Assembly (NCBI GenBank): GCA_035279405.1
Contig: DATEHU010000052.1
Location: 1 to 49,105 of the forward strand
Length of the DNA: 49,105 nt
Direction of reading: 5' to 3'
From: Gammaproteobacteria bacterium
GTDB lineage: Bacteria; Pseudomonadota; Gammaproteobacteria; Natronospirales; REEB76
Below are positions 37,384 through 49,105 of the stretch, one piece after another. The position numbers and the translations under genes are program-made. Position 1 is the stretch's first letter. Each line of letters begins with the position of its first letter. The notes beneath the pieces are model-generated. The model did no database searches. It was not told the DNA's origin and saw only the letters and a list, made by a program, of their open reading frames with translations.

Positions 37384-38001
37384 CTAGAACGTCACGCGCA
37401 GGCCGACGTAAATCCCGTGCGGCATGACACCCAGGATAAGCGGCGTTTGCCGGTCGTGCGCATAGATGCCCCAGAGCGTGCCCACGGCCCAGCCGGCGAG
37501 CACATCGGTCTGCCAGTGGCCTTGCGTCTTCATGCGAGCCACCGCGTCGTAGGCGGGCAGGGCTTCCAACGCCCATACCCAAGGATGTTCCTGCTGGTAT
37601 TCGAGAATAAACGGGGTGACAAAGCTCGCCTGCAGAGCCACTTCGCCGCTCGGAAAGCTCTGGCCGCCCTTGAACCATTCGTTGGGATTGTCGGTCTGTG
37701 AAGGCCGCTCACGGCCGAAGGCGTATTTCATGCCTTGCACGGTGAGCGCAGTGAAGGCCGAAGAGTCAATGGATTGCCAGAAAGTTTTGCCGAGCTGATT
37801 CTGGCCGCCGAGCCAGAGCGCACCGCCCAGTTCCGTAAGGATCACGCCGTCTTCCAGCAGCAACTGGTTGTGCCTCGCCCAGATGCCTGAATTGTCGTAG
37901 GGCAGGCGGTGGTCTATGCCAAGCGGCCCGCCGGCGGCGTCGGCGTTGAATGCCAGGCTCGCAAAAATCAGAAGCAACAGGCCTGACAACAGTGACCGCA
38001 T
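37384..38001 (-). CDS. PAP2-like phosphatase with an altered catalytic motif
   Basis: A 205-residue exported protein (signal peptide ending near residue 22, NADAAGG). It has the three PAP2 motifs, but with a change: C1 is K-Y-A-F-G-R-E-R-P; C2 reads P-S-G-E120 where the family has P-S-G-H; C3 reads A-R-M-K-T-Q-G-H-W-Q-T-D with its Arg, His and Asp kept. The C2 His normally gives a proton to the leaving group, so activity may differ. The end (HGIYVGLRVTF) is a barrel-like strand with terminal Phe, suggesting outer-membrane association. The start ATG overlaps the kinase stop (TGATG), so it is translated with the two-component system. Confidence 0.85.
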   Translation of the reverse strand: MRSLLSGLLLLIFASLAFNADAAGGPLGIDHRLPYDNSGIWARHNQLLLEDGVILTELGGALWLGGQNQLGKTFWQSIDSSAFTALTVQGMKYAFGRERPSQTDNPNEWFKGGQSFPSGEVALQASFVTPFILEYQQEHPWVWALEALPAYDAVARMKTQGHWQTDVLAGWAVGTLWGIYAHDRQTPLILGVMPHGIYVGLRVTF

Positions 38002-39419
38002 CAACCCGCCTGTCCCTGGAAAATCAGACTGACACGCAGTCCGGGTTGATTATCTTCCATTTTGAGCATAGCACCGTGGTGTTCAGCTACGGCTTTCACC
38101 AGCGACAAACCGAGTCCGTTGCCGGGCTGACTGCGGCTGGCGTCGAGGCGCACGAAACGCTGCAGGGCTTTCTCGCGTAATTCTGGCGGGATGCCTGGCC
38201 CGGTATCCATAATTGTGATCACAGGTTGGGTAGTGTTTGTCGCAAGACTGAGCGTGATACGTCCATCAGCCGGTGTGTACTTGATGGCGTTGTCCAGCAG
38301 GTTGCCGATGGCCTGGGCAATCAGTTGACGGTTGCCTTGCACTGACTCGGCACTGCTGATATCCGTGGTAAAGCGCAGATGTTTTTCTTCAGCCAGCGGT
38401 TCGTACAGCTCGGCGGCGTCACGACACACCGCCGTCAGATCCACGTCGTTCCAGTCGCGGCGCGTGCCGGATTCGATTTGGGCGATGCTGAGAATCGCAT
38501 TCAGAGTAGCGACGATAGTGTCGGTTTCCTCGATGGCTTTTTGCAGTGCTTCTTTTTGTCGCCCCAGATCATTGCCCTTCATCAATGCCATTTCCGCGCG
38601 GCCACGCAGGCGGGTGAGCGGGCTGCGCAAATCGTGCGCCACATTTTCGGTCACCTCGCGAGTGCTTTTCATGAGCTGCTCGATACGCTCTAGCATGGCG
38701 TTGAGTTTGGCAGCGAGTGCGTCGAATTCATCCTCGCCGTGCTCCTCGGGAATGCGCTGCGACAGATCTCCGGCCATGATGGTGTCGGCGGTGCGTGTCA
38801 CGTTCTGCAAACGCCGCAGAACTCCGCGGCCAACCAGCACTCCACCCAGCATGCCAACGATTAGCACCAAAATGACTGCTGCAACCGTGAGCGCGAGTAT
38901 GGTGTTGCGCAGCTCGGTCAACTCATCCAGTGACTGGCCCACTAGCAGGTGATAGCCGCCGGGCAGCGCGAGCGCCACGGCGCGCATTCCAAAGTGGTGA
39001 TGTTCGGCGTCAAGTTCAAGCTGGTTCGCGGGCGCGCGTAGCCGCAAGGTGGCCCAGACTTCGTTCCGAGTGGCGATCCTTTTCGGCCAATATGACAACG
39101 AACCTGCAAGAGGCCGAAAGTTTGCGTCAGTCAACAAATACTGGCGCGGACCGGCGTCGCCGGTGTCGCTGGCGGCGAGACCCTTGGTACTGCTGAGCGC
39201 GGCAATGGTTTCGCGCAGGCCGGCGATGCCTTTGAGTGCGTACAGCCGTGTGAGCGCGGTGCTTTCGGCGCGCAGGCCGGCGTCAATCTGGGTGTTGAGT
39301 TGCGAGATCGTGACCCAGTAGATGATGGCGAAGCACACCACGGTGAGTAGACACACGAAGCCGGTATAGCGCAGCGCCAGACGGAAGACGGTGGTATGGG
39401 CCAGTCGAATCCGATTCAC
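38001..39419 (-). CDS. Two-component sensor histidine kinase
   Basis: A 472-residue inner-membrane kinase. Two membrane segments (about 16-36 and 170-195) flank a periplasmic sensor region of about 130 residues. A HAMP domain follows (RRLQNVTRTADTIMAGDLSQRI). The dimerisation helix carries the phosphorylated His262 in VAHDLRSPLTRL, and the ATPase domain has the N-box LLDNAIKYTP, DTGPGIPP and GLGLSLVKAV. It starts with GTG, overlapping the regulator stop (GTGA), and its own stop overlaps the phosphatase start. The layout resembles metal- and antibiotic-responsive kinases next to RND pumps, but the signal is unknown. Confidence 0.93.
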   Translation of the reverse strand: MNRIRLAHTTVFRLALRYTGFVCLLTVVCFAIIYWVTISQLNTQIDAGLRAESTALTRLYALKGIAGLRETIAALSSTKGLAASDTGDAGPRQYLLTDANFRPLAGSLSYWPKRIATRNEVWATLRLRAPANQLELDAEHHHFGMRAVALALPGGYHLLVGQSLDELTELRNTILALTVAAVILVLIVGMLGGVLVGRGVLRRLQNVTRTADTIMAGDLSQRIPEEHGEDEFDALAAKLNAMLERIEQLMKSTREVTENVAHDLRSPLTRLRGRAEMALMKGNDLGRQKEALQKAIEETDTIVATLNAILSIAQIESGTRRDWNDVDLTAVCRDAAELYEPLAEEKHLRFTTDISSAESVQGNRQLIAQAIGNLLDNAIKYTPADGRITLSLATNTTQPVITIMDTGPGIPPELREKALQRFVRLDASRSQPGNGLGLSLVKAVAEHHGAMLKMEDNQPGLRVSLIFQGQAG

Positions 39420-40096
39420 GGCGTCGGGGCGTGCAGGCAGTAACCGGTGCCACGCACCGTGTGGATCAGCGGCTGCGCGGAATGCTTGTCTATTTTGGTG
39501 CGCAGCCGGCTCATGTGCACATCAATCACGTTGGTCTGCGGATCGAAGTGATAGCCCCAGACCTGTTCCAGCAGCATGGCACGCGTCAGCGTTTGACCGG
39601 CGTGCAGCATCAGGTACTCGAGCAGGCGGAATTCGCGCGCCTGCAGATCTACGTGCTGGCCGGCACGCGTGACGTTGCGCGTGAGCCGGTTCATTTCAAG
39701 ATCCGCGACCCTGAGCCGCATCTCGCCGGCCGGGGCACTGCGGCGTCGCACGATGGCTTCAATCCTAGCCAGCAATTCGGCAAACGCAAACGGCTTGGCG
39801 AGATAGTCATCACCACCGTTCTGCAGACCGGTAACCCGGTCGTCCACGTCCGCGAGCGCTGTCAGAAACAACACCGGTGTGCCGTTGCCTTCAGCGCGCA
39901 GTTTCCTGACCAGGCTCAAGCCATCCAGGCCCGGCAGCATGCGATCCACGATCAGCGCGTCGTAACTGGATGTTTGCGCGCGCTTCAGGCCGTCCGGACC
40001 GGTGGCCGCGTGTTCCACCACGTAGCTGCTTTCCTGCAAACCCTTCACCAGATAGGCGGCGGTTTCCAGATCGTCTTCGATAACCAGTAGGCGCAT
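39416..40096 (-). CDS. OmpR/PhoB-family response regulator
   Basis: A 226-residue DNA-binding regulator. The receiver domain has the acidic pair Asp8-Asp9, phosphoacceptor Asp51 (LIVDRMLPG), the T/L-T-A block and the DDYLAKPF lysine. The C-terminal winged helix (about 130-222) contains LQAREFRLLEYLMLHAGQTLTRAMLLEQVW and the wing VRGTGYCL. The ATG at 40096 was chosen since it gives MRLLVIEDD; a longer in-frame frame upstream crosses the intergenic region. It is divergent from the efflux operon and overlaps the kinase gene by four bases, so it probably controls the pump. Confidence 0.94.
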   Translation of the reverse strand: MRLLVIEDDLETAAYLVKGLQESSYVVEHAATGPDGLKRAQTSSYDALIVDRMLPGLDGLSLVRKLRAEGNGTPVLFLTALADVDDRVTGLQNGGDDYLAKPFAFAELLARIEAIVRRRSAPAGEMRLRVADLEMNRLTRNVTRAGQHVDLQAREFRLLEYLMLHAGQTLTRAMLLEQVWGYHFDPQTNVIDVHMSRLRTKIDKHSAQPLIHTVRGTGYCLHAPTP

Positions 40097-40246: not shown

Positions 40247-41632
40247 ATGATTCGCTGGCCTGAAAACCGGTTGGGGTTTGTATGTGTGCTGTCAGCCTGT
40301 CTAGGGGGATGCGCCCTGTATCACGCCCGGCCCCTTCCGCAACGACCTGATTTGACAGCCCGACTTGAGCCGCTGCGAGTGGACGTGAGCAGGATTCATC
40401 TTCCGGGCCTCAAGCCGCATCCATTTGATCCGTCGAGAGGACTCGATGCCACGGATGTGGCGATTCTGGCGGTGGTGAACAATCCGGCGCTCAAGACCGC
40501 GCGCGCCCAGGCACAGGCCGGCGAAGCGCAGGCGTTCGTGGCCGGAATGTTGCCGGGGCCGCAGCTCAGCTACAGCCTGGATCATCCTACCCATCAGCCA
40601 CCGCAGTACACCAATGCCCACAGTGCGGGGCTGGCCTACGACATCACGGCATTGGTGACGCATCCTGCTGCCGAGTCCGCAGTCCGGGCGACTGCGAAAC
40701 AAATTGATCTCAATCTTTTGTGGCAGGAATGGCAGGTGGCCCAGCAGGCGCAGCTGCTGTATGTGGATTGCCTGAACAACAGCCGCAAGCTGGGTTTGCT
40801 TACGAAGCTGCGCGACAACATGGAAAGCCGCTATCAGGCAGAGCAGCGCGCTTATGCGGCCGGCGATCTGGCGCTGGCGGATCTGGGGCTGGGACTTGCC
40901 GCCTTGCAGAACGTACAAACTCTCGCGAGTACTACGGCCACGGCGCGCAACGCCGGCTGCCGCTCCCTGAATGAAATTTTGGGCCTGCAGCCGGATGTGG
41001 TGCTTAATTTGATGCCGGATAACGACCCCCTACCTACGCCTACCGCAGCGGTACTGCAACAGGATCTGGCAGAACTATCGCAACGGCGTCCCGATCTAGT
41101 GGCACTGCGATACGGTTACAAAAGCCAGGACGAAGAAGTGTGGCGTGCGGTGCTGGCGCAGTTTCCGGGCATCAGCTTCGGCATCAACCGCGCCCAGGAC
41201 ACCAGCGACGTGCATACCACGGGTTTCAGCGTAAGCATCAACTTCCCCTTCCTGAGTGGCGGCGCGGCGGCGGTGCACGCCGCCGAAGCCACCCGCGATG
41301 CGCTCTGGCAACAATACCAGCAGCGGCTGGACGCAGCGGTGAGCGAGGTACATCTCATCCATGCCGATCTCGGCGTGCTGGACCGGGAGCTTGCGCAAGC
41401 TGGTGCCAGCTCGGTGGATACACAGCAAATGCTGATCGGCGCGCGCAATGCCTATGAGCGCGGCGACCTTACGGCGCCGGCCTATTACGACATCAGCATT
41501 GCGATTCAGAATCGCAAGCTTGCCAACATGGACATCCAAGCCCAGCGGCAGCAACTGCGGATTGCCCTGGAAACCTTGCTGGGCCTGCCGGCTGAGGATC
41601 TTCAACACCCGGTAAATGAGAAGCAGCCATGA
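40247..41632 (+). CDS. Outer-membrane efflux channel, TolC/OprM family lipoprotein
   Basis: A 461-residue outer-membrane channel of a tripartite efflux pump. The lipobox L-G-G-C (Cys22) makes it a lipoprotein. Two OEP repeats follow, rich in Ala/Gln/Leu helices that form the periplasmic tunnel; for example LAILAVVNNPALKTARAQAQAGEAQAF is the usual start of the first. It resembles CusC/OprM-type channels. Its stop overlaps the adaptor start by four bases (ATGA). Confidence 0.9.
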   Translation: MIRWPENRLGFVCVLSACLGGCALYHARPLPQRPDLTARLEPLRVDVSRIHLPGLKPHPFDPSRGLDATDVAILAVVNNPALKTARAQAQAGEAQAFVAGMLPGPQLSYSLDHPTHQPPQYTNAHSAGLAYDITALVTHPAAESAVRATAKQIDLNLLWQEWQVAQQAQLLYVDCLNNSRKLGLLTKLRDNMESRYQAEQRAYAAGDLALADLGLGLAALQNVQTLASTTATARNAGCRSLNEILGLQPDVVLNLMPDNDPLPTPTAAVLQQDLAELSQRRPDLVALRYGYKSQDEEVWRAVLAQFPGISFGINRAQDTSDVHTTGFSVSINFPFLSGGAAAVHAAEATRDALWQQYQQRLDAAVSEVHLIHADLGVLDRELAQAGASSVDTQQMLIGARNAYERGDLTAPAYYDISIAIQNRKLANMDIQAQRQQLRIALETLLGLPAEDLQHPVNEKQP

Positions 41633-42669
41633 AACGTCCGTATCTATGCCTGTGTGTAATCGCCCTGGCTGTCGCATCGCTGGCGGATGCGGCCACGGCA
41701 GCCGGTGGCCCGGCAGTCAGTGCGCTGGTACAGACCGCGGCAGTGACCAGGCGCAGCGTGGCGGAGAGTATGCCGGTGTACGGCATAGTGGTACCCGAGC
41801 CGCGGGAAATTCTTACATTGGCCGCGCCACGGGAAAGCATCATTGCCGGGGTGGCGGTGAACAGCGGTGAGCGCGTGCACAAAGGACAGGTGCTGGTCAC
41901 ACTTTTGCCCACGCCCGCGAGCCGCATGGTCTTCGTGCAGGCAAAGTCGACGGAGCACGACGCTGCCACGGTGCTCACCCATACTCGCGCCTTATATAAG
42001 GAGCATCTGGCCACTCGCGACCAGGTGACCGCGGCAGAAAAGGCTCTCACCGATGCCCAGGCCGCGCTGGCCGCGGCGGAACAGGCGGGCGGTGGCGGTG
42101 CATTGCGCTTGCGCGCACCCGGGGACGCAGTGGTGACTGGCGTGACGGTGACTACCGGAGAGCGTGTGGCCGCCAACACCACTTTGCTCGTGCTGGCCAT
42201 ACGGGGCGGTCAGCAGGTACGGCTCGGTGTGGCTCCGGAACAGGCGGGCGCCGTACATGTCGGCCTGCCCGTGACGGTGACTTCGGTATTCGACACGCAG
42301 GTCACAGCCAGAGGAAAAATCACCGGCGTCGGCGGCATGCTGGATTCCGGCACCGGTCTGGTGGATGTGTTCGTACCGTTGCCGCGAACGGCTCAGGGTT
42401 TCCTGCCCGGCGCAGCCGTGCACGGAGTAATCATCCTGCAGGACAATCGCAGTCTGGCGGTGCCACGCTCCGCGGTGTTGCGGGACGGGCAGGGCGCTTA
42501 CGTATTCATCGTCAGGAATCACATGGCGCATCGCGTCAACGTCAAGACGGGCGCCGACGACGGCACCTGGATAGCGGTCAGCGGCGACCTCAAGGCCGGT
42601 GACCAAGTGGTCACACTCGGCAATTACGAACTCACCGACGGTATGGCGATTCGGGAGCCGGCGCCTTGA
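41629..42669 (+). CDS. RND efflux periplasmic adaptor (membrane fusion protein)
   Basis: A 346-residue adaptor linking the RND pump to the outer-membrane channel. A signal peptide (ending DAATAAGG) is followed by the lipoyl/hairpin region (about 60-150). The first lipoyl half is at ESIIAGVAVNSGERVHKGQVLVTL and the second at APGDAVVTGVTVTTGERVAANTTLL. Beta-barrel and membrane-proximal domains follow to the end. The coiled coil between the lipoyl halves is short. Overlaps at both ends (ATGA, TTGA) show translational coupling with the flanking pump genes. Confidence 0.9.
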   Translation: MKRPYLCLCVIALAVASLADAATAAGGPAVSALVQTAAVTRRSVAESMPVYGIVVPEPREILTLAAPRESIIAGVAVNSGERVHKGQVLVTLLPTPASRMVFVQAKSTEHDAATVLTHTRALYKEHLATRDQVTAAEKALTDAQAALAAAEQAGGGGALRLRAPGDAVVTGVTVTTGERVAANTTLLVLAIRGGQQVRLGVAPEQAGAVHVGLPVTVTSVFDTQVTARGKITGVGGMLDSGTGLVDVFVPLPRTAQGFLPGAAVHGVIILQDNRSLAVPRSAVLRDGQGAYVFIVRNHMAHRVNVKTGADDGTWIAVSGDLKAGDQVVTLGNYELTDGMAIREPAP

Positions 42670-45600
42670 ATTTTCAGGCGTTCCTGCAACGCCATCGCCG
42701 CTCGCTGGTATTCCTGGCGGCAGCCTTGGTCATCGGCGGGATATTTGCGGCCGTCAAACTGCCGGTTGCCATGCTGCCGGACGTGCAATCACCGCGCATC
42801 CTGGTGTTGCTGGACGCCGGCGATCGCCCCGCTTCACAGATGGAATTGCAGGTCACGCGCCCGGTGGAAATTGCGGTGCGCTCCATTCCCGGCGTGAAAT
42901 CGGTGCGCTCCATCACCAGCCGCGGCAGCGCCCAGATTTCAGTCAACTATGCCTGGGGGCAGAACATGTACCAGGCGCTGCTGGAAGTCGAAGCCAAGAT
43001 CAGCCTGATGTTGCCGGATCTGCCGGCGGATACGCGCTTCACGGTGGAGCGGCGTGATCCTACCGAATTCCCGGTCATCGCCTACAGCCTGACCTCGAAT
43101 ACCGTGAGCCTGGTGGAGTTGCGTGACCTCGGGCTTTACCAGTTGCGGCCGCTGTTGTCGCGTGTCAGCGGCGTGGCGCGCGTCGAGGTACAGGGCGGCC
43201 ATGAAGCGGAATACCACGTGGACGTGAATCCGGCGAAGCTGCGCGCTCTGCATCTGTCGCTGGCCGATGTGGTGAACGTGGTTTCCGCCGGAAATGTACT
43301 TACAGCTGTTGGACGGTTCGAGGATCACTACAAGCTCTATCTGCTGGTATCGGATACGCGCCTGCAGGACATCAATAAACTCAAGCAGGTGGTGCTGCGG
43401 CGCGGCGCCAATGGCATTGTCACCGTAGGCGACGTGGCCCAGGTGAGCCTGTCCACCGTACCCCAATGGATACGCATCACTGCGAACGGCACAAATGCGG
43501 TGCTGCTCAATATTTTTCAGCAGCCCGGCGCCAATACGGTGCAAATTGACCAAGGCGTCGAACAACTGCTGCAGACTTATAAGCAAAAACTCCCGCCGGA
43601 TGTGCACATCAGCAAATGGTACGACCAGAGCGGGTTGATTGTGGCTTCCACCCACAGCGTGCGCGACGCCATTCTGATTGGTGTGATCCTGGCGGCGCTG
43701 GTGCTGTTTATATTCCTGCGCAATTACAAGATCACCATCATCAGCATTCTGATCGTGCCCTCGGCGATTGCCATATCCATCCTGCTCCTCTATGTATTAG
43801 GGTTGAGCTTCAATATCATGACCTTGGGCGGCATCGCCGCGGCCGTGGGACTGGTGATTGATGACGTAGTGGTGATGTGCGAGCACATCGTACGCCGGCT
43901 GCGTGAGAAACGTGAACAGCCGCCTCACGAGCGCATCATGTGGGCGGCCCGGGAATTCACCCGGCCGCTCATGGGTTCCTCGGCGTCCACCATCATCATC
44001 TTCATACCGCTGGCGTTCCTGGGCGGCATCACCGGCGCATTCTTCAAATCCCTGTCCCTGACCATGGCCAGCACGCTGGTGTTTTCGTTTCTGCTGGCGT
44101 GGCTGGTGGTGCCGGTGCTGGCGGGCTGGTGGCTCAGGGACAAGGACGGCCAACCGGAGCATTTTGGCTGGCTGGCGCGCCATGCGCACCGTTTCTACTT
44201 CTGGCTCATACCGCATTTGCTGCGCCGGCCGGTATGGCTGCTGGCCGGCCTGATTCCGCTGGCTGCGTTAGGTATTCTCGGTTATCACTACGTGGGCACC
44301 GGCTTCCTGCCACGCATGGACCAGGGTGGCTTCACTTTCGACTACATCGCCCCGCCCGGCACCTCGCTGACGGAAACCGACCGCATGCTGCGTCAGGTGG
44401 AGCATATTTTGCAAACCAACCCCAATGTGGAAAGCTACTCACGGCGCACGGGCACGCAATTGGGTGGCGGCGTGACCGAAGCGAATTCCGGCGATATTTT
44501 CGTGAACCTCAAGCCCTTCCCGCGGGAGCCCATCGAGAAGGTCATGAGCGAGGTGCGCGACGCGGTCAACGCCCAGGTGCCGGGCCTGCGGATTGATCTG
44601 TCCCAACTGCTTGAGGACATGATCGGCGACATGACCTCGGTGCCGCAGCCGGTGGAGATCAAGCTGTTCAGTGACAATACTGACGAGATTTTGCAGCTTG
44701 CTCCCAGGGTGGCCGATGCCATCAGCAAGGTGCCGGGCATCGTGGACGTGAATGACGGGGTGGTGGATGCCGGCGATGCTCTGGATATCCATATAAACCT
44801 GGTCAAGGCCGGATTGCTGGGCCTGGATCCCGCCGGCATCACACAGCAACTGGATACCTATCTTCAGGGCACGGTGGCGGCGCAGGTGCAGCAGGGTGTG
44901 AAGTTCGTGGGCATCCGTGTGTGGACGCCGCCAACGTTGCGCTTGCGCACCGGCCAGCTTGGCGAAATACCGATCCGTGCGCCGGATGGCAAAGTGTTCC
45001 CTCTGTCTGAAGTGGCCACCGTTACCACCGTCACCGGCCAGCCGGAGATTGACCGGGACAATTTGAAGCGCCTGTTTGCGGTCACCGCGCGTATCAGCGG
45101 CCGCAGCCTCGGCACCACCATCAGTGATGTGAAGAAAGTCCTGGCTACACCCGGACTGATTCCGAAGGGAGTGGATGTGCAACTTGGCGGCCTCTACAAA
45201 CAGCAGCAGATTGCATTCCGGGGCCTGGCGATCGTGTTCGCCGCAGCCGTGGCGCTGATTTTCGCGTTGCTGCTGTTCCTGTATGAAGGCTTCCGGGTGG
45301 TGCTGTCCATCATGACTGCACCGCTCATGGCGGTGGGCATGGTGTTTTTTGCCCTGTGGATCGTCGGTATCGAACTCAACATCACCGCGATCATGGGCAT
45401 GACCATGATTGTCGGCATCGTCACCGAGGTGGCGATCTTCTATTTCTCGGAATTCATGGAACTGAAGCACGCGGAAAACTTTGAAAAAGCACTGGTGGAC
45501 GCGGGATTGAACCGCATGCGCGCCATCGCACTCACCACCCTGACCACCATCCTGGCTCTCTTGCCGCTGGCTTTGGACATCGGCCAGGGGGCCGCCATGC

Positions 45601-45755
45601 AGCAGCCGCTCGCGGTCGCGATCATCGCCGGCGAAGCGATACAACTGCCGCTGGTGCTGATCGTGATGCCGGTGATTTATTACCTGCTCATGGGTGGCCG
45701 CCGCCGTTTGCCAGGTGCGCCGCCGGGTCAACAGGGGTCAATGGAAATGACGTAA
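42666..45755 (+). CDS. RND efflux transporter, inner-membrane pump
   Basis: A 1029-residue proton-driven RND pump. Twelve membrane segments are arranged as 1+5+1+5 around two large periplasmic loops. Proton-relay aspartates Asp399 and Asp400 (GLVIDDVVVM) are present in TM4, as is the usual TM1 P-V-A-M-L-P-D start. Sequence features sit nearer the HAE-1 (organic compound) type than to the CzcA/CusA metal type, since I see no clear metal-pump signature; the substrate remains unknown. The start is TTG, overlapping the adaptor stop. Its last about 37 codons exist a second time downstream (46226-46337). Confidence 0.92.
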   Translation: MNFQAFLQRHRRSLVFLAAALVIGGIFAAVKLPVAMLPDVQSPRILVLLDAGDRPASQMELQVTRPVEIAVRSIPGVKSVRSITSRGSAQISVNYAWGQNMYQALLEVEAKISLMLPDLPADTRFTVERRDPTEFPVIAYSLTSNTVSLVELRDLGLYQLRPLLSRVSGVARVEVQGGHEAEYHVDVNPAKLRALHLSLADVVNVVSAGNVLTAVGRFEDHYKLYLLVSDTRLQDINKLKQVVLRRGANGIVTVGDVAQVSLSTVPQWIRITANGTNAVLLNIFQQPGANTVQIDQGVEQLLQTYKQKLPPDVHISKWYDQSGLIVASTHSVRDAILIGVILAALVLFIFLRNYKITIISILIVPSAIAISILLLYVLGLSFNIMTLGGIAAAVGLVIDDVVVMCEHIVRRLREKREQPPHERIMWAAREFTRPLMGSSASTIIIFIPLAFLGGITGAFFKSLSLTMASTLVFSFLLAWLVVPVLAGWWLRDKDGQPEHFGWLARHAHRFYFWLIPHLLRRPVWLLAGLIPLAALGILGYHYVGTGFLPRMDQGGFTFDYIAPPGTSLTETDRMLRQVEHILQTNPNVESYSRRTGTQLGGGVTEANSGDIFVNLKPFPREPIEKVMSEVRDAVNAQVPGLRIDLSQLLEDMIGDMTSVPQPVEIKLFSDNTDEILQLAPRVADAISKVPGIVDVNDGVVDAGDALDIHINLVKAGLLGLDPAGITQQLDTYLQGTVAAQVQQGVKFVGIRVWTPPTLRLRTGQLGEIPIRAPDGKVFPLSEVATVTTVTGQPEIDRDNLKRLFAVTARISGRSLGTTISDVKKVLATPGLIPKGVDVQLGGLYKQQQIAFRGLAIVFAAAVALIFALLLFLYEGFRVVLSIMTAPLMAVGMVFFALWIVGIELNITAIMGMTMIVGIVTEVAIFYFSEFMELKHAENFEKALVDAGLNRMRAIALTTLTTILALLPLALDIGQGAAMQQPLAVAIIAGEAIQLPLVLIVMPVIYYLLMGGRRRLPGAPPGQQGSMEMT

Positions 45756-46268
45756 ATGTTCCGTGCTGCATCCCTCGCAAGGAATCTGCATCGTCTCTTC
45801 TGGGTAACCGTCGTCGTTCACGGTCTGGACGGATTGCTGGAGATCATCGGGGCGAGTCTCATGCTGGTGGCAAGTCACGTGGATCTGGTCAATTTAGCCG
45901 TGTATCTCACGGCCCCGGAATTGGCGGAAGATCCGGATGATCTGGTTGCCAATTATTTGCGCCACGCCGTGATCCACTTGTCGGCAAATACCAAATCATT
46001 TGTCACGGTGTATCTCCTGTTCCATGGCTTGGTCAAGCTGTCGCTGATGATCGGAATAGTGCGCGGGAAGCTGTGGGCCTATCCGACTGCGTGTGGTCTT
46101 ATAGGGCTGTTTGTCTGTTATCAGGCCTACCGCATAAGCCACACCCACTCAGTAGCCCTTCTGGTCTTCATGCTTATAGAGATGCTGACGCTGTATCTGA
46201 TATGGCGCGAATACCGGCTGCGCATCCGCCATGCCGCAGCCGCTGGCGGTCGCGATCATCGCCGGTGA
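45756..46268 (+). CDS. DUF2127 family membrane protein with a replaced C-terminus
   Basis: A 170-residue protein with about four membrane segments and the DUF2127 pattern: LLFHGLVKLSLMIGIVRGKLWAYP (about 87-110), FVCYQAYRISHTHS and LTLYLIWREYR. Function unknown. The ATG follows the RND stop with no gap. The normal family end appears to be WREYRLR; the last dozen codons (HAAAAGGRDHRR) are an out-of-frame reading of a duplicated RND gene tail, so the natural C-terminus was probably lost or replaced when the segment arrived. Confidence 0.85.
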   Translation: MFRAASLARNLHRLFWVTVVVHGLDGLLEIIGASLMLVASHVDLVNLAVYLTAPELAEDPDDLVANYLRHAVIHLSANTKSFVTVYLLFHGLVKLSLMIGIVRGKLWAYPTACGLIGLFVCYQAYRISHTHSVALLVFMLIEMLTLYLIWREYRLRIRHAAAAGGRDHRR

Positions 46269-46353
46269 AGCGGTGCAACTGCCGCTGGTGCTGATCGTGA
46301 TGCCGGTGATCTACTTTCTGCTGATGCGCGGCCGGCAGCCGCAGGCGGTATAA
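46226..46353 (+). pseudogene. Remnant of an RND pump gene 3' end
   Basis: Bases 46226-46337 match 45592-45703, the end of the RND gene, with about 12 differences in some 110 positions, all at an offset of 634. In the RND frame from 46231 it reads MPQPLAVAIIAGEAVQLPLV and continues to GRQPQAV and TAA at 46351-46353. Most differences are silent or conservative, as in a tail that evolved as a coding sequence, not a fresh copy. It overlaps the last codons of the DUF2127 gene in another frame. No start or 5' part is present. Confidence 0.85.
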
Positions 46354-46357
46354 ATTC

Positions 46358-46434
46358 TTGTGGGAGCGGCCGGCGGACCTATGGGTCCACGCCGCGATTC
46401 CGAATCATCGTGACAGAGACCGTCGCTCCCACAA
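46358..46434. repeat. Paired REP (BIME-like) inverted repeat
   Basis: TTGTGGGAGCG (46358-46368) and its exact inverse CGCTCCCACAA (46424-46434) bracket an inner hairpin GGACC/GGTCC and GCGGC/GCCGC. The arms belong to the GTGGGAGCGGC...GCCGCGA family; the unit at 32101-32130 is a close relative. It sits between the efflux operon and the convergent BNR gene and may serve as a transcript end for both. Confidence 0.8.
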
Positions 46435-46461
46435 TTTTGCCGCCCACAATGCACAAGGCAG

Positions 46462-49105
46462 TCAGGGTTTCAGCAGCTCCTCCACTTGGTGGATGTCCTG
46501 TTGCAGCCTGGCTTCACCGGCGTGCGCCCGGCCGGAGAGAATCGCAAAGCCTTGCTCCTGGACCTGTGTCAACGGCATGTAGTTGATTTCGATGTCGTTG
46601 GCGAGCAGCGCCAAATGACTGCGTAGTTTCGGCTCATAGACAAGGTCGCCTTCGCTGGATTTGATCTTGAGCTGCACCAGGTCGGCAATGTCGCGGTCGA
46701 GTGCCGCCAGGGCGGTGCGCGCACGGCGTGTGGAGACCTTGCCGTCGGTCACGGCTTTTTGCAGCGCAGTGCGTGCGCCTATCGCCTGGTTGAGCTTGTT
46801 GTTCAGGCTGTCGAGCGTGTCATGGATCTGCATGAGCAGATGGAAACGCGCCTGCAATTGCTCCGGCGTGGTTTTGAGTCTAGGATCCAGCCGCACCTCG
46901 AAGGGCTGTTTCGACACCGTGCCGTGGTAGTCGAGCACGGAAAAATAGGTGCCGGGCAGGACATCCGGACCGGTGAGCTGGTCGTCATAGCCGTCATCCA
47001 CGAAGGGCGGATGAAAACCGGTGACCTCGATGGCATCCGGATAACGCAGATTCCACTGGAAGCGGTTCATGCCGGGGTGCAATTTCGGCTTTGCTTTCTC
47101 GTCCTTCTTGGCGGGCAGCGGCAAGTTGAAGCTGTTGATGACCTTGCCCTGCGCGTCCGTGAAGCTCAGTTTCACCTGGGTATGACCGTCATAGTCCGCG
47201 GGCAGGTTGAAAAATACCGTGGCGCCCGGCACGTGGTTCTCGCCTTCGTCCGGCCGCGTGAACTCGCCGAGCGAGCGCTTGACCAGCCAGGTCTGCTGCG
47301 GGGCGAAGAGATACGCCTCATCGCTCGCAGCCTGCGCGGTACCCAGCTGTTCGAGGAATTGCAGATTGTCCATTACCCAGAACGCGCGGCCGTGCGTAGC
47401 CAGCACCACCGCATGCTGGTCCGGCTGGATGGCAATATCGCTGACGCGTACCGCAGGCAGATTGAGCGCGAGCGACGCCCAGTGTGAGCCGGTGTCAAAG
47501 CTCACGAATACCGTCTTGCTGGTGCCGAGGAACAGCAGGCTGGGATCATTCGGGTCCTGGCGGATGCTTTCCAGATACTGGTCATCCGCCAGCCCGGAAG
47601 TGAGCGCGGTCCAGTGCTTACCGTAGTCGGTAGTCTTGTACGCATAGGGCCTGAAGTCGTCCCATTGGTAACGGCTGGCGGTGAGATACGCGGTACCGGG
47701 ATCGGCGTGCGAAGCCTCGATGCAGGTCACGGTGGACCAGGTCGGCAGACTCGGCGGCCGCACCGGAGTCCAGTGGCCGCCGTTATCGGTGGTCAGATAC
47801 ACGAGGCCATCGCCGGAGCCGGTCCAGATGATGCTGTCATTGATGGGCGAAACCGCCATGGCGGTGATGGTGGGAAAGACCTCGGCGCCGGAAACATCCG
47901 CGCTGATGGGGCCGCCGGGGCGGCCCTGGGTGCTCTTGTCGTCGCGCGTGAGATCCGGGCTGATGACGGTCCAAATCATGCCGTAATCCAGGCTGCGCAG
48001 CACGTATTGCGCGCCGATCAGCAGTTTCTGCGGATTGCCGGGCGCAAACAGGATCGGATGGTGAATCCAGCCGAAGCGGTATTGGAGCTTCTCGGCGGCC
48101 GCGCCGTCGTAGTAGATAGGCGCGGGTGTGATGCTTTGCACCACGCCGGCGCGCCGATCGTCGCGGAACATCAGCGCGTAGTAGCCGCTCGCATAGGTGA
48201 TCCACGGGGCATCGGGCTGCGGCACCACCCAGCTGCTTTCGCCACCGCGCACGTCCTGCCAGGCGGTTGTCGGGATGCCGCCGTCGGGCACCGCGCTCGG
48301 CCCTTCGGTGGAGCCTTCGTCCTGCTGGGCGCCGTAGATGTGGAACGGAAACTGGTTGTCCAGGTTCACGTGATAGAACTGGCCGGTGGGCTGGTTGTGC
48401 TCCTGACTCCAGGTCTTGCCGCCGTCCTGTGTGACCGTGGCTCCGCCGTCATTGCCCTCGATCATGATCTGCGGATTATAGGGATTGATCCACAGCGCAT
48501 GATTGTCACCGTGAGGCGTGTGCAGTTTGCTGAAGGTTTTGCCGCCGTCGTGCGATACCCAGAGCGCGGCAACCTGCGGCGCATACACGGTGTTCGGATC
48601 CTTGGGGTCCACGAACAGTGTCGAATAATAGAAGGCGCGCTGCGTCAGGCTCATGGAGTTGTTGACCAGGGCCCAATGTATGCCGGCGTCGTCGGAACGG
48701 AACAATCCGCCGGCTTCGCCCTGATATTGGGCCTGGATGATGGCGTACAGAACATCGGGCTGGCTGGGCGCGATCGCCAGACCCACGCGGCCGAAGATGC
48801 CGGTCGGCAATCCCGCGCTGTGCGTGATGTTCGTCCAGGTGGCACCGCCATCGGTGCTTTTATAGATGCCGCTGCCGGATCCACCACTCGAGAGTGTCCA
48901 GGGCCGGCGATAGGCCTCCCACATCGCGGCATACAGAATCTGAGGATTGGCCGGGTCCATGGTGAGATCAATGGTGCCGGTCTCGTCGTTGACGTAAAGA
49001 ATCTTTTTCCAGGTTTTGCCGCCATCCGTGCTTTTATACACGCCGCGTTCGGAATTGGGTGCCCACACGTGACCCATGGCCGCGACATACACGATGTCGG
49101 GATTG
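46462..49105 (-). CDS. BNR/sortilin-like beta-propeller protein (5' end outside window)
   Basis: At least 880 residues of a large protein annotated in this family as glycosyl hydrolase-like or VPS10/sortilin-type. Its N-terminal part lies beyond the right edge; the frame is open to 49105. It carries many Asp-box/BNR repeats of the form S-x-D-x-G-x-x-W: YKSTDGGKTW, YKSTDGGATW, WVSHDGGKTF, YLTTDNGGHW, YKTTDYGKHW. These build two beta-propellers over the first two thirds. A C-terminal fibronectin-like and helical part follows (FNLPADYDGHTQVKLSF, then a helical bundle). Actual hydrolase activity is not shown for the family. It is convergent with the efflux operon. Confidence 0.88.
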   Translation of the reverse strand, partial: NPDIVYVAAMGHVWAPNSERGVYKSTDGGKTWKKILYVNDETGTIDLTMDPANPQILYAAMWEAYRRPWTLSSGGSGSGIYKSTDGGATWTNITHSAGLPTGIFGRVGLAIAPSQPDVLYAIIQAQYQGEAGGLFRSDDAGIHWALVNNSMSLTQRAFYYSTLFVDPKDPNTVYAPQVAALWVSHDGGKTFSKLHTPHGDNHALWINPYNPQIMIEGNDGGATVTQDGGKTWSQEHNQPTGQFYHVNLDNQFPFHIYGAQQDEGSTEGPSAVPDGGIPTTAWQDVRGGESSWVVPQPDAPWITYASGYYALMFRDDRRAGVVQSITPAPIYYDGAAAEKLQYRFGWIHHPILFAPGNPQKLLIGAQYVLRSLDYGMIWTVISPDLTRDDKSTQGRPGGPISADVSGAEVFPTITAMAVSPINDSIIWTGSGDGLVYLTTDNGGHWTPVRPPSLPTWSTVTCIEASHADPGTAYLTASRYQWDDFRPYAYKTTDYGKHWTALTSGLADDQYLESIRQDPNDPSLLFLGTSKTVFVSFDTGSHWASLALNLPAVRVSDIAIQPDQHAVVLATHGRAFWVMDNLQFLEQLGTAQAASDEAYLFAPQQTWLVKRSLGEFTRPDEGENHVPGATVFFNLPADYDGHTQVKLSFTDAQGKVINSFNLPLPAKKDEKAKPKLHPGMNRFQWNLRYPDAIEVTGFHPPFVDDGYDDQLTGPDVLPGTYFSVLDYHGTVSKQPFEVRLDPRLKTTPEQLQARFHLLMQIHDTLDSLNNKLNQAIGARTALQKAVTDGKVSTRRARTALAALDRDIADLVQLKIKSSEGDLVYEPKLRSHLALLANDIEINYMPLTQVQEQGFAILSGRAHAGEARLQQDIHQVEELLKP

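Follow-up and report, generated by a model that had tools for sequence, protein, structure and literature searches.

An orphan fragment of an RND permease gene (T2) lies behind the DUF2127 gene of an efflux pump operon in the window, the whole 49,105-nucleotide stretch of DNA that was analysed. The locus is an ordinary, well-documented rearrangement scar and not the capture of a new gene. T2 is probably a dead fragment of another copy of the permease gene RND-A. Its junction with DUF2127 would have come about when two versions of the locus underwent an illegitimate crossover.

Results

An RND-A tail recurs behind DUF2127

The features of the locus are listed in Table 1. RND-A matches ACR_tran over its full length (PF00873, residues 5-1008), as is expected of an RND (AcrB/AcrD/AcrF) permease; no NCBIfam subfamily cut-off was reached. 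It is the sole full copy in its own genome (G000), and its best matches in 8 genomes of the genus range from 78-97%. DUF2127 is likewise a full-length member of its family (PF09900 at residues 17-153, profile positions 4-140 of 140, 84 bits vs a gathering score of 24.3), and the two genes are probably co-transcribed.

Table 1. Features of the pump operon and of the rearranged region, with positions in the window.
Feature	Position	Strand	Remarks
OMP1, outer-membrane efflux protein of pump operon	40247..41632	+	PF02321; conserved in genus
MFP1, periplasmic adaptor of pump operon	41629..42669	+	PF13437/PF16576; TIGR01730
RND-A, AcrB-family permease, intact, 1029 aa	42666..45755	+	PF00873, E 5.7e-212
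T1	45592..45700	+	repeat copy inside live RND-A gene
Left joint, RND-A C-tail and DUF2127 start	45693..45783	+	DNA search matches G000 and G004 only; breakpoint somewhere within this span
DUF2127 membrane protein gene, 170 codons	45756..46268	+	PF09900, E 1.6e-23; ATG abuts RND-A stop
T2, orphan RND-A tail fragment with own stop	46226..46353	+	DUF2127 joint at 46226; 95% to G004 T2
RND-A ending of T2 version			IYFLLMRGRQPQAV
REP-like palindrome, dispersed repeat	46357..46450	+	directly after T2 stop; hairpin z = -4.05
BNR/glycosylhydrolase-like repeat protein gene	46462..49104	-	NF045728 below cut-off; cut by contig end

A direct repeat of 109 nt (45592-45700 and 46226-46334) is 89% identical at a spacing of 634, with a match (E about 1e-35) that rules out chance. 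The initial annotation, made from the sequence alone, had described an RND tail recurring 634 bases on at about 89% identity, and this is borne out. It had placed the repeat at the very end of the RND gene, as its last 110 bases, but RND-A runs on past the repeat, its last 55 bases (C-tail ...LPGAPPGQQGSMEMT) falling outside. The other features it had reported of the second copy hold: the 128 bases of T2 are open in the RND frame up to a TAA of their own at 46351-46353, and the final 13 codons and stop of DUF2127 sit within T2 in another frame. The C-terminal ending of T2 is ...MRGRQPQAV, of which the RGRQPQAV part is wholly unlike T1. That the tails differ mostly at silent positions is only partly so, since 8 of the first 33 codons of G000 differ between T1 and T2, 5 of them silently and 3 by replacement (Q>P, I>V, Y>F), the second of these being a change on the T1 side. 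Overall, the fragment and live RND-A have diverged by about 10%; T2 lacks its own start and is presumably without function.

Gene order in related genomes

Ten other genomes of the genus (G001-G010) were searched. On contig C151 of G004 (MAG REEB89) the order is RND-A, DUF2127, T2, BNR gene and PstB, with both joints present, the BNR gene thus standing between DUF2127 and pst. DNA identity to G000 is 95% for T2 and 97% for DUF2127. An assembly artefact is rejected, because the same order and both joints occur in this second genome, which is 3-11% different. Since two different genomes carry both joints, the structure is real, and it is either older than the split of G000 and G004 or has spread between them.

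The arrangement is not common to all relatives, a possibility that had been held open as a ground against the initial annotation's reading. Seven genomes (G001, G002, G006, G007, G008, G009, G010) fit the order RND-A - RR2 - HK2 - OMP2 - MFP2 - RND-B - DUF2127, with some of these orders pieced together from separate contigs or lacking the DUF2127 end. PstB comes next after DUF2127 in G001, G008 and G010, and in G006 the contig stops short of that point and DUF2127 was not found. In G005, RND-A is followed after a 17-base gap by DUF2127 and pst (PstB), with no pump cassette. Neither a close RND-A nor a DUF2127 was found in G003. The second pump cassette (OMP-MFP-RND-B) is absent from G000, G004 C151 and G005. 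A Pho-box-like CTGTCATATTTCTGTCATATT lies shortly 3′ of DUF2127 in several relatives, and its counterpart in G004 comes only after the BNR gene. As DUF2127 stands before pst in relatives, the part that appears out of place is the T2-REP-BNR block after DUF2127, and the part that appears to be missing is the RND-B cassette before it.

DUF2127 is native to the locus: wherever found in the genus it occupies this same locus, immediately ahead of the pst promoter in those contigs that show it and usually following a second pump cassette. In the 197 bases that could be compared, the G000 gene and the native gene of G002 have 95% DNA identity. Because it holds its place before pst in relatives, DUF2127 was resident there already. 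The gene orders of relatives weigh against the proposal that recombination introduced it as a new operon member.

Joints and flanking elements

At the left joint, similarity to G002 ends at 45692 and restarts at 45784. A search for the source of this stretch (45690-45795) in the genus genomes gave no match besides G000 and G004. Judged from the DUF2127 genes of relatives, any microhomology with the RND-A tail at the right joint (46226) would amount to CCG or CCGC at most. No Rfam match to a structured RNA was obtained in the joint region. The REP-like palindrome has further partial matches elsewhere in G000 and in other genomes of the genus. The BNR gene (window 46462-49104, L151) stops at the contig edge; in G000, contigs C23 and C26 carry identical short ends and a 75% paralogue, which suggests that an array of BNR genes broke the assembly.

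Origin of T2

In a tree of the tails, a comparison that the initial annotation had called for, the T2 copies of G000 and G004 cluster together with a support of 0.98, separate from both T1 copies. As the T2 copies group with each other across genomes, there has been no homogenisation of tails inside single genomes, and gene conversion of that kind, the other ground that the initial annotation had named against its reading, is rejected. With only 128 bases in T2, both the trees and the substitution counts are weak. Those changes that the two T2 copies share are for the most part silent. Between the T2 of G000 and that of G004, 3 of 42 codons differ silently and 3 by replacement, L>R and R>C among them, which looks like a lack of constraint in a small sample; the L>R falls in a stretch that corresponds to a membrane helix in RND-A. 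The ratio of replacing to silent changes since the split is about 4:3, vs 17:69 codons in the adjacent RND-A (P about 0.03, from few events). Since the shared changes are mostly silent and the later ones mostly not, T2 looks to have belonged to a live RND-A up to its separation and to have been dead since then. This agrees with the earlier suggestion that it came from another RND copy evolving under coding selection, the divergence being mostly coding-constrained.

T2 is about 8% different from the G002 tail, so its source would be a close relative or a paralogue. G004 contains two RND-A versions, 93.3% alike over 1453 bases, on contigs C22 and C151 (L060, L129), and a paralogous source is therefore possible; C22 ends 22 bases into the repeat. 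A strain mixture behind the two versions is not obvious, as one 14.7-kb region was checked and had no second near-identical copy. RND-A is itself a mosaic. Identity between G000 and G004 C22 is about 90% at RND-A 401-1200 (window 43066-43865) and mostly 96-98% on either side, a dip that suggests recombination with another lineage, and the patchy identity among relatives indicates that recombination is common at the locus. In window 38001-39615, the HK1/RR1 boundary marks a fall in identity to G004 C22, about 95% on one side and 82% on the other, and is likely another recombination edge.

Discussion

Recombination at RND tails, as first proposed from the sequence, is the likely cause of the structure. 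In the reading we favour, two versions of the locus recombined, either in the lineage ancestral to both G000 and G004 or in just one of these genomes with later spread. One version would have been RND-A(T1)-DUF2127-pst after an earlier loss of the RND-B cassette; the other would have had an RND-A tail (T2) followed by the REP element and the BNR gene. The exchange may have been anchored by homology, either in RND-A upstream or on the pst side downstream. At the other end a single illegitimate crossover would have joined the 3′ end of DUF2127 to RND-A coding sequence some 40 codons before its stop. DUF2127 would thereby have lost its native last codons and the intergenic region, coming to stop out of frame in T2, while RND-A and DUF2127 stayed intact and adjacent. 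The second parent in this scheme, RND-A(T2) directly before REP-BNR, was found in none of the genomes.

A joint between the end of DUF2127 and an RND-A tail is also the expected product of a tandem duplication that takes in the RND-A tail, the cassette and DUF2127, which counts against the crossover. Deletions would then have taken both cassette copies and the second DUF2127, and the cassette is indeed missing from the three genomes named above. This history is unlikely: it takes at least three events, T2 would have begun as T1 and drifted freely, yet its shared changes are mostly silent, and its last residues bear no resemblance to T1. It is doubtful, too, that two tandem RND-A paralogues once flanked DUF2127 and that the body of the second was deleted to leave its tail, a course that would make foreign DNA unnecessary. 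The two diverged RND-A versions of G004, with no obvious strain mixture, speak for it, but RND-A follows DUF2127 in no genome, only a single MFP1 copy was found in G004, and C22 stops inside the repeat, so that the context beyond is not visible.

The view first taken of this DNA, with DUF2127 as a newcomer introduced by recombination between RND tails, is the impression that G000 alone gives. Moreover, the T1 C-tail and DUF2127 are about 97% identical between G000 and G004 and the RND body 94% (Fisher P 0.006), so this stretch may have travelled. Set against the position of DUF2127 before pst in relatives and its close identity to the native gene of G002, such a capture is very improbable, and the T2 locus does not demonstrate that capture gave rise to a new operon member. 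What the crossover between two locus versions would offer is an example, dated relative to the species split, of illegitimate recombination at a pump operon leaving gene scraps, in which the C-terminus of a neighbour was rewritten without obvious harm.

The locus also points to gain and loss of entire efflux cassettes at a site specific to the genus. Relative to the G001 copy, RND-B identity is 53% in G002 and about 30% in G009, and RR2-HK2 is conserved (L045:7341-15657, L046:7165-15301, L176, L059:3579-11215). A further RR1-HK1-RR2-HK2-OMP-MFP-RND set lies on G004 C179. It is conceivable, if unlikely, that the site between RND-A with the two-component genes and DUF2127-pst serves the genus for exchange of pump cassettes, holding at least three distinct OMP-MFP-RND kinds or standing empty, that DUF2127 is a general accessory retained next to any RND pump that happens to be there, and that T2 is the scar of one such exchange. 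DUF2127 follows pumps of different kinds within the genus. None was seen near RND-A homologues in the loci scanned outside the genus, so the idea that DUF2127 generally accompanies this RND subfamily is rejected and a general accessory role is only a guess. A literature search on DUF2127 gave no more than two passing mentions.

The operon resembles other RND tripartite efflux operons (OMP-MFP-RND, PF00873) in its OMP1-MFP1-RND-A order with divergent two-component genes RR1-HK1. It differs in that DUF2127 follows, and that most relatives have a second, varying pump cassette next. The proposed crossover recalls homology-facilitated illegitimate recombination, which passages of PMC6382021 describe, citing the original work, for the transformation of Acinetobacter, Streptococcus pneumoniae and Pseudomonas stutzeri. 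There, one side of the exchange is anchored by homology, the other has little or none, and hybrid joints are left. RND-A would suit as an anchor, being homologous and mosaic, but no parent of the T2 version was found, and of the 3-10 bp of microhomology, CCG or CCGC is possible at 46226 from the comparison with relatives. The difference is that only a fossil is present here. The locus is also akin to partial gene-duplicate scars and to the gene remnants left where rearrangements join, in that a truncated, promoterless 3′ fragment of a neighbouring gene lies beside the live gene. The present fragment differs from these in its divergence from the adjacent gene, which makes a fresh copy of that gene improbable.
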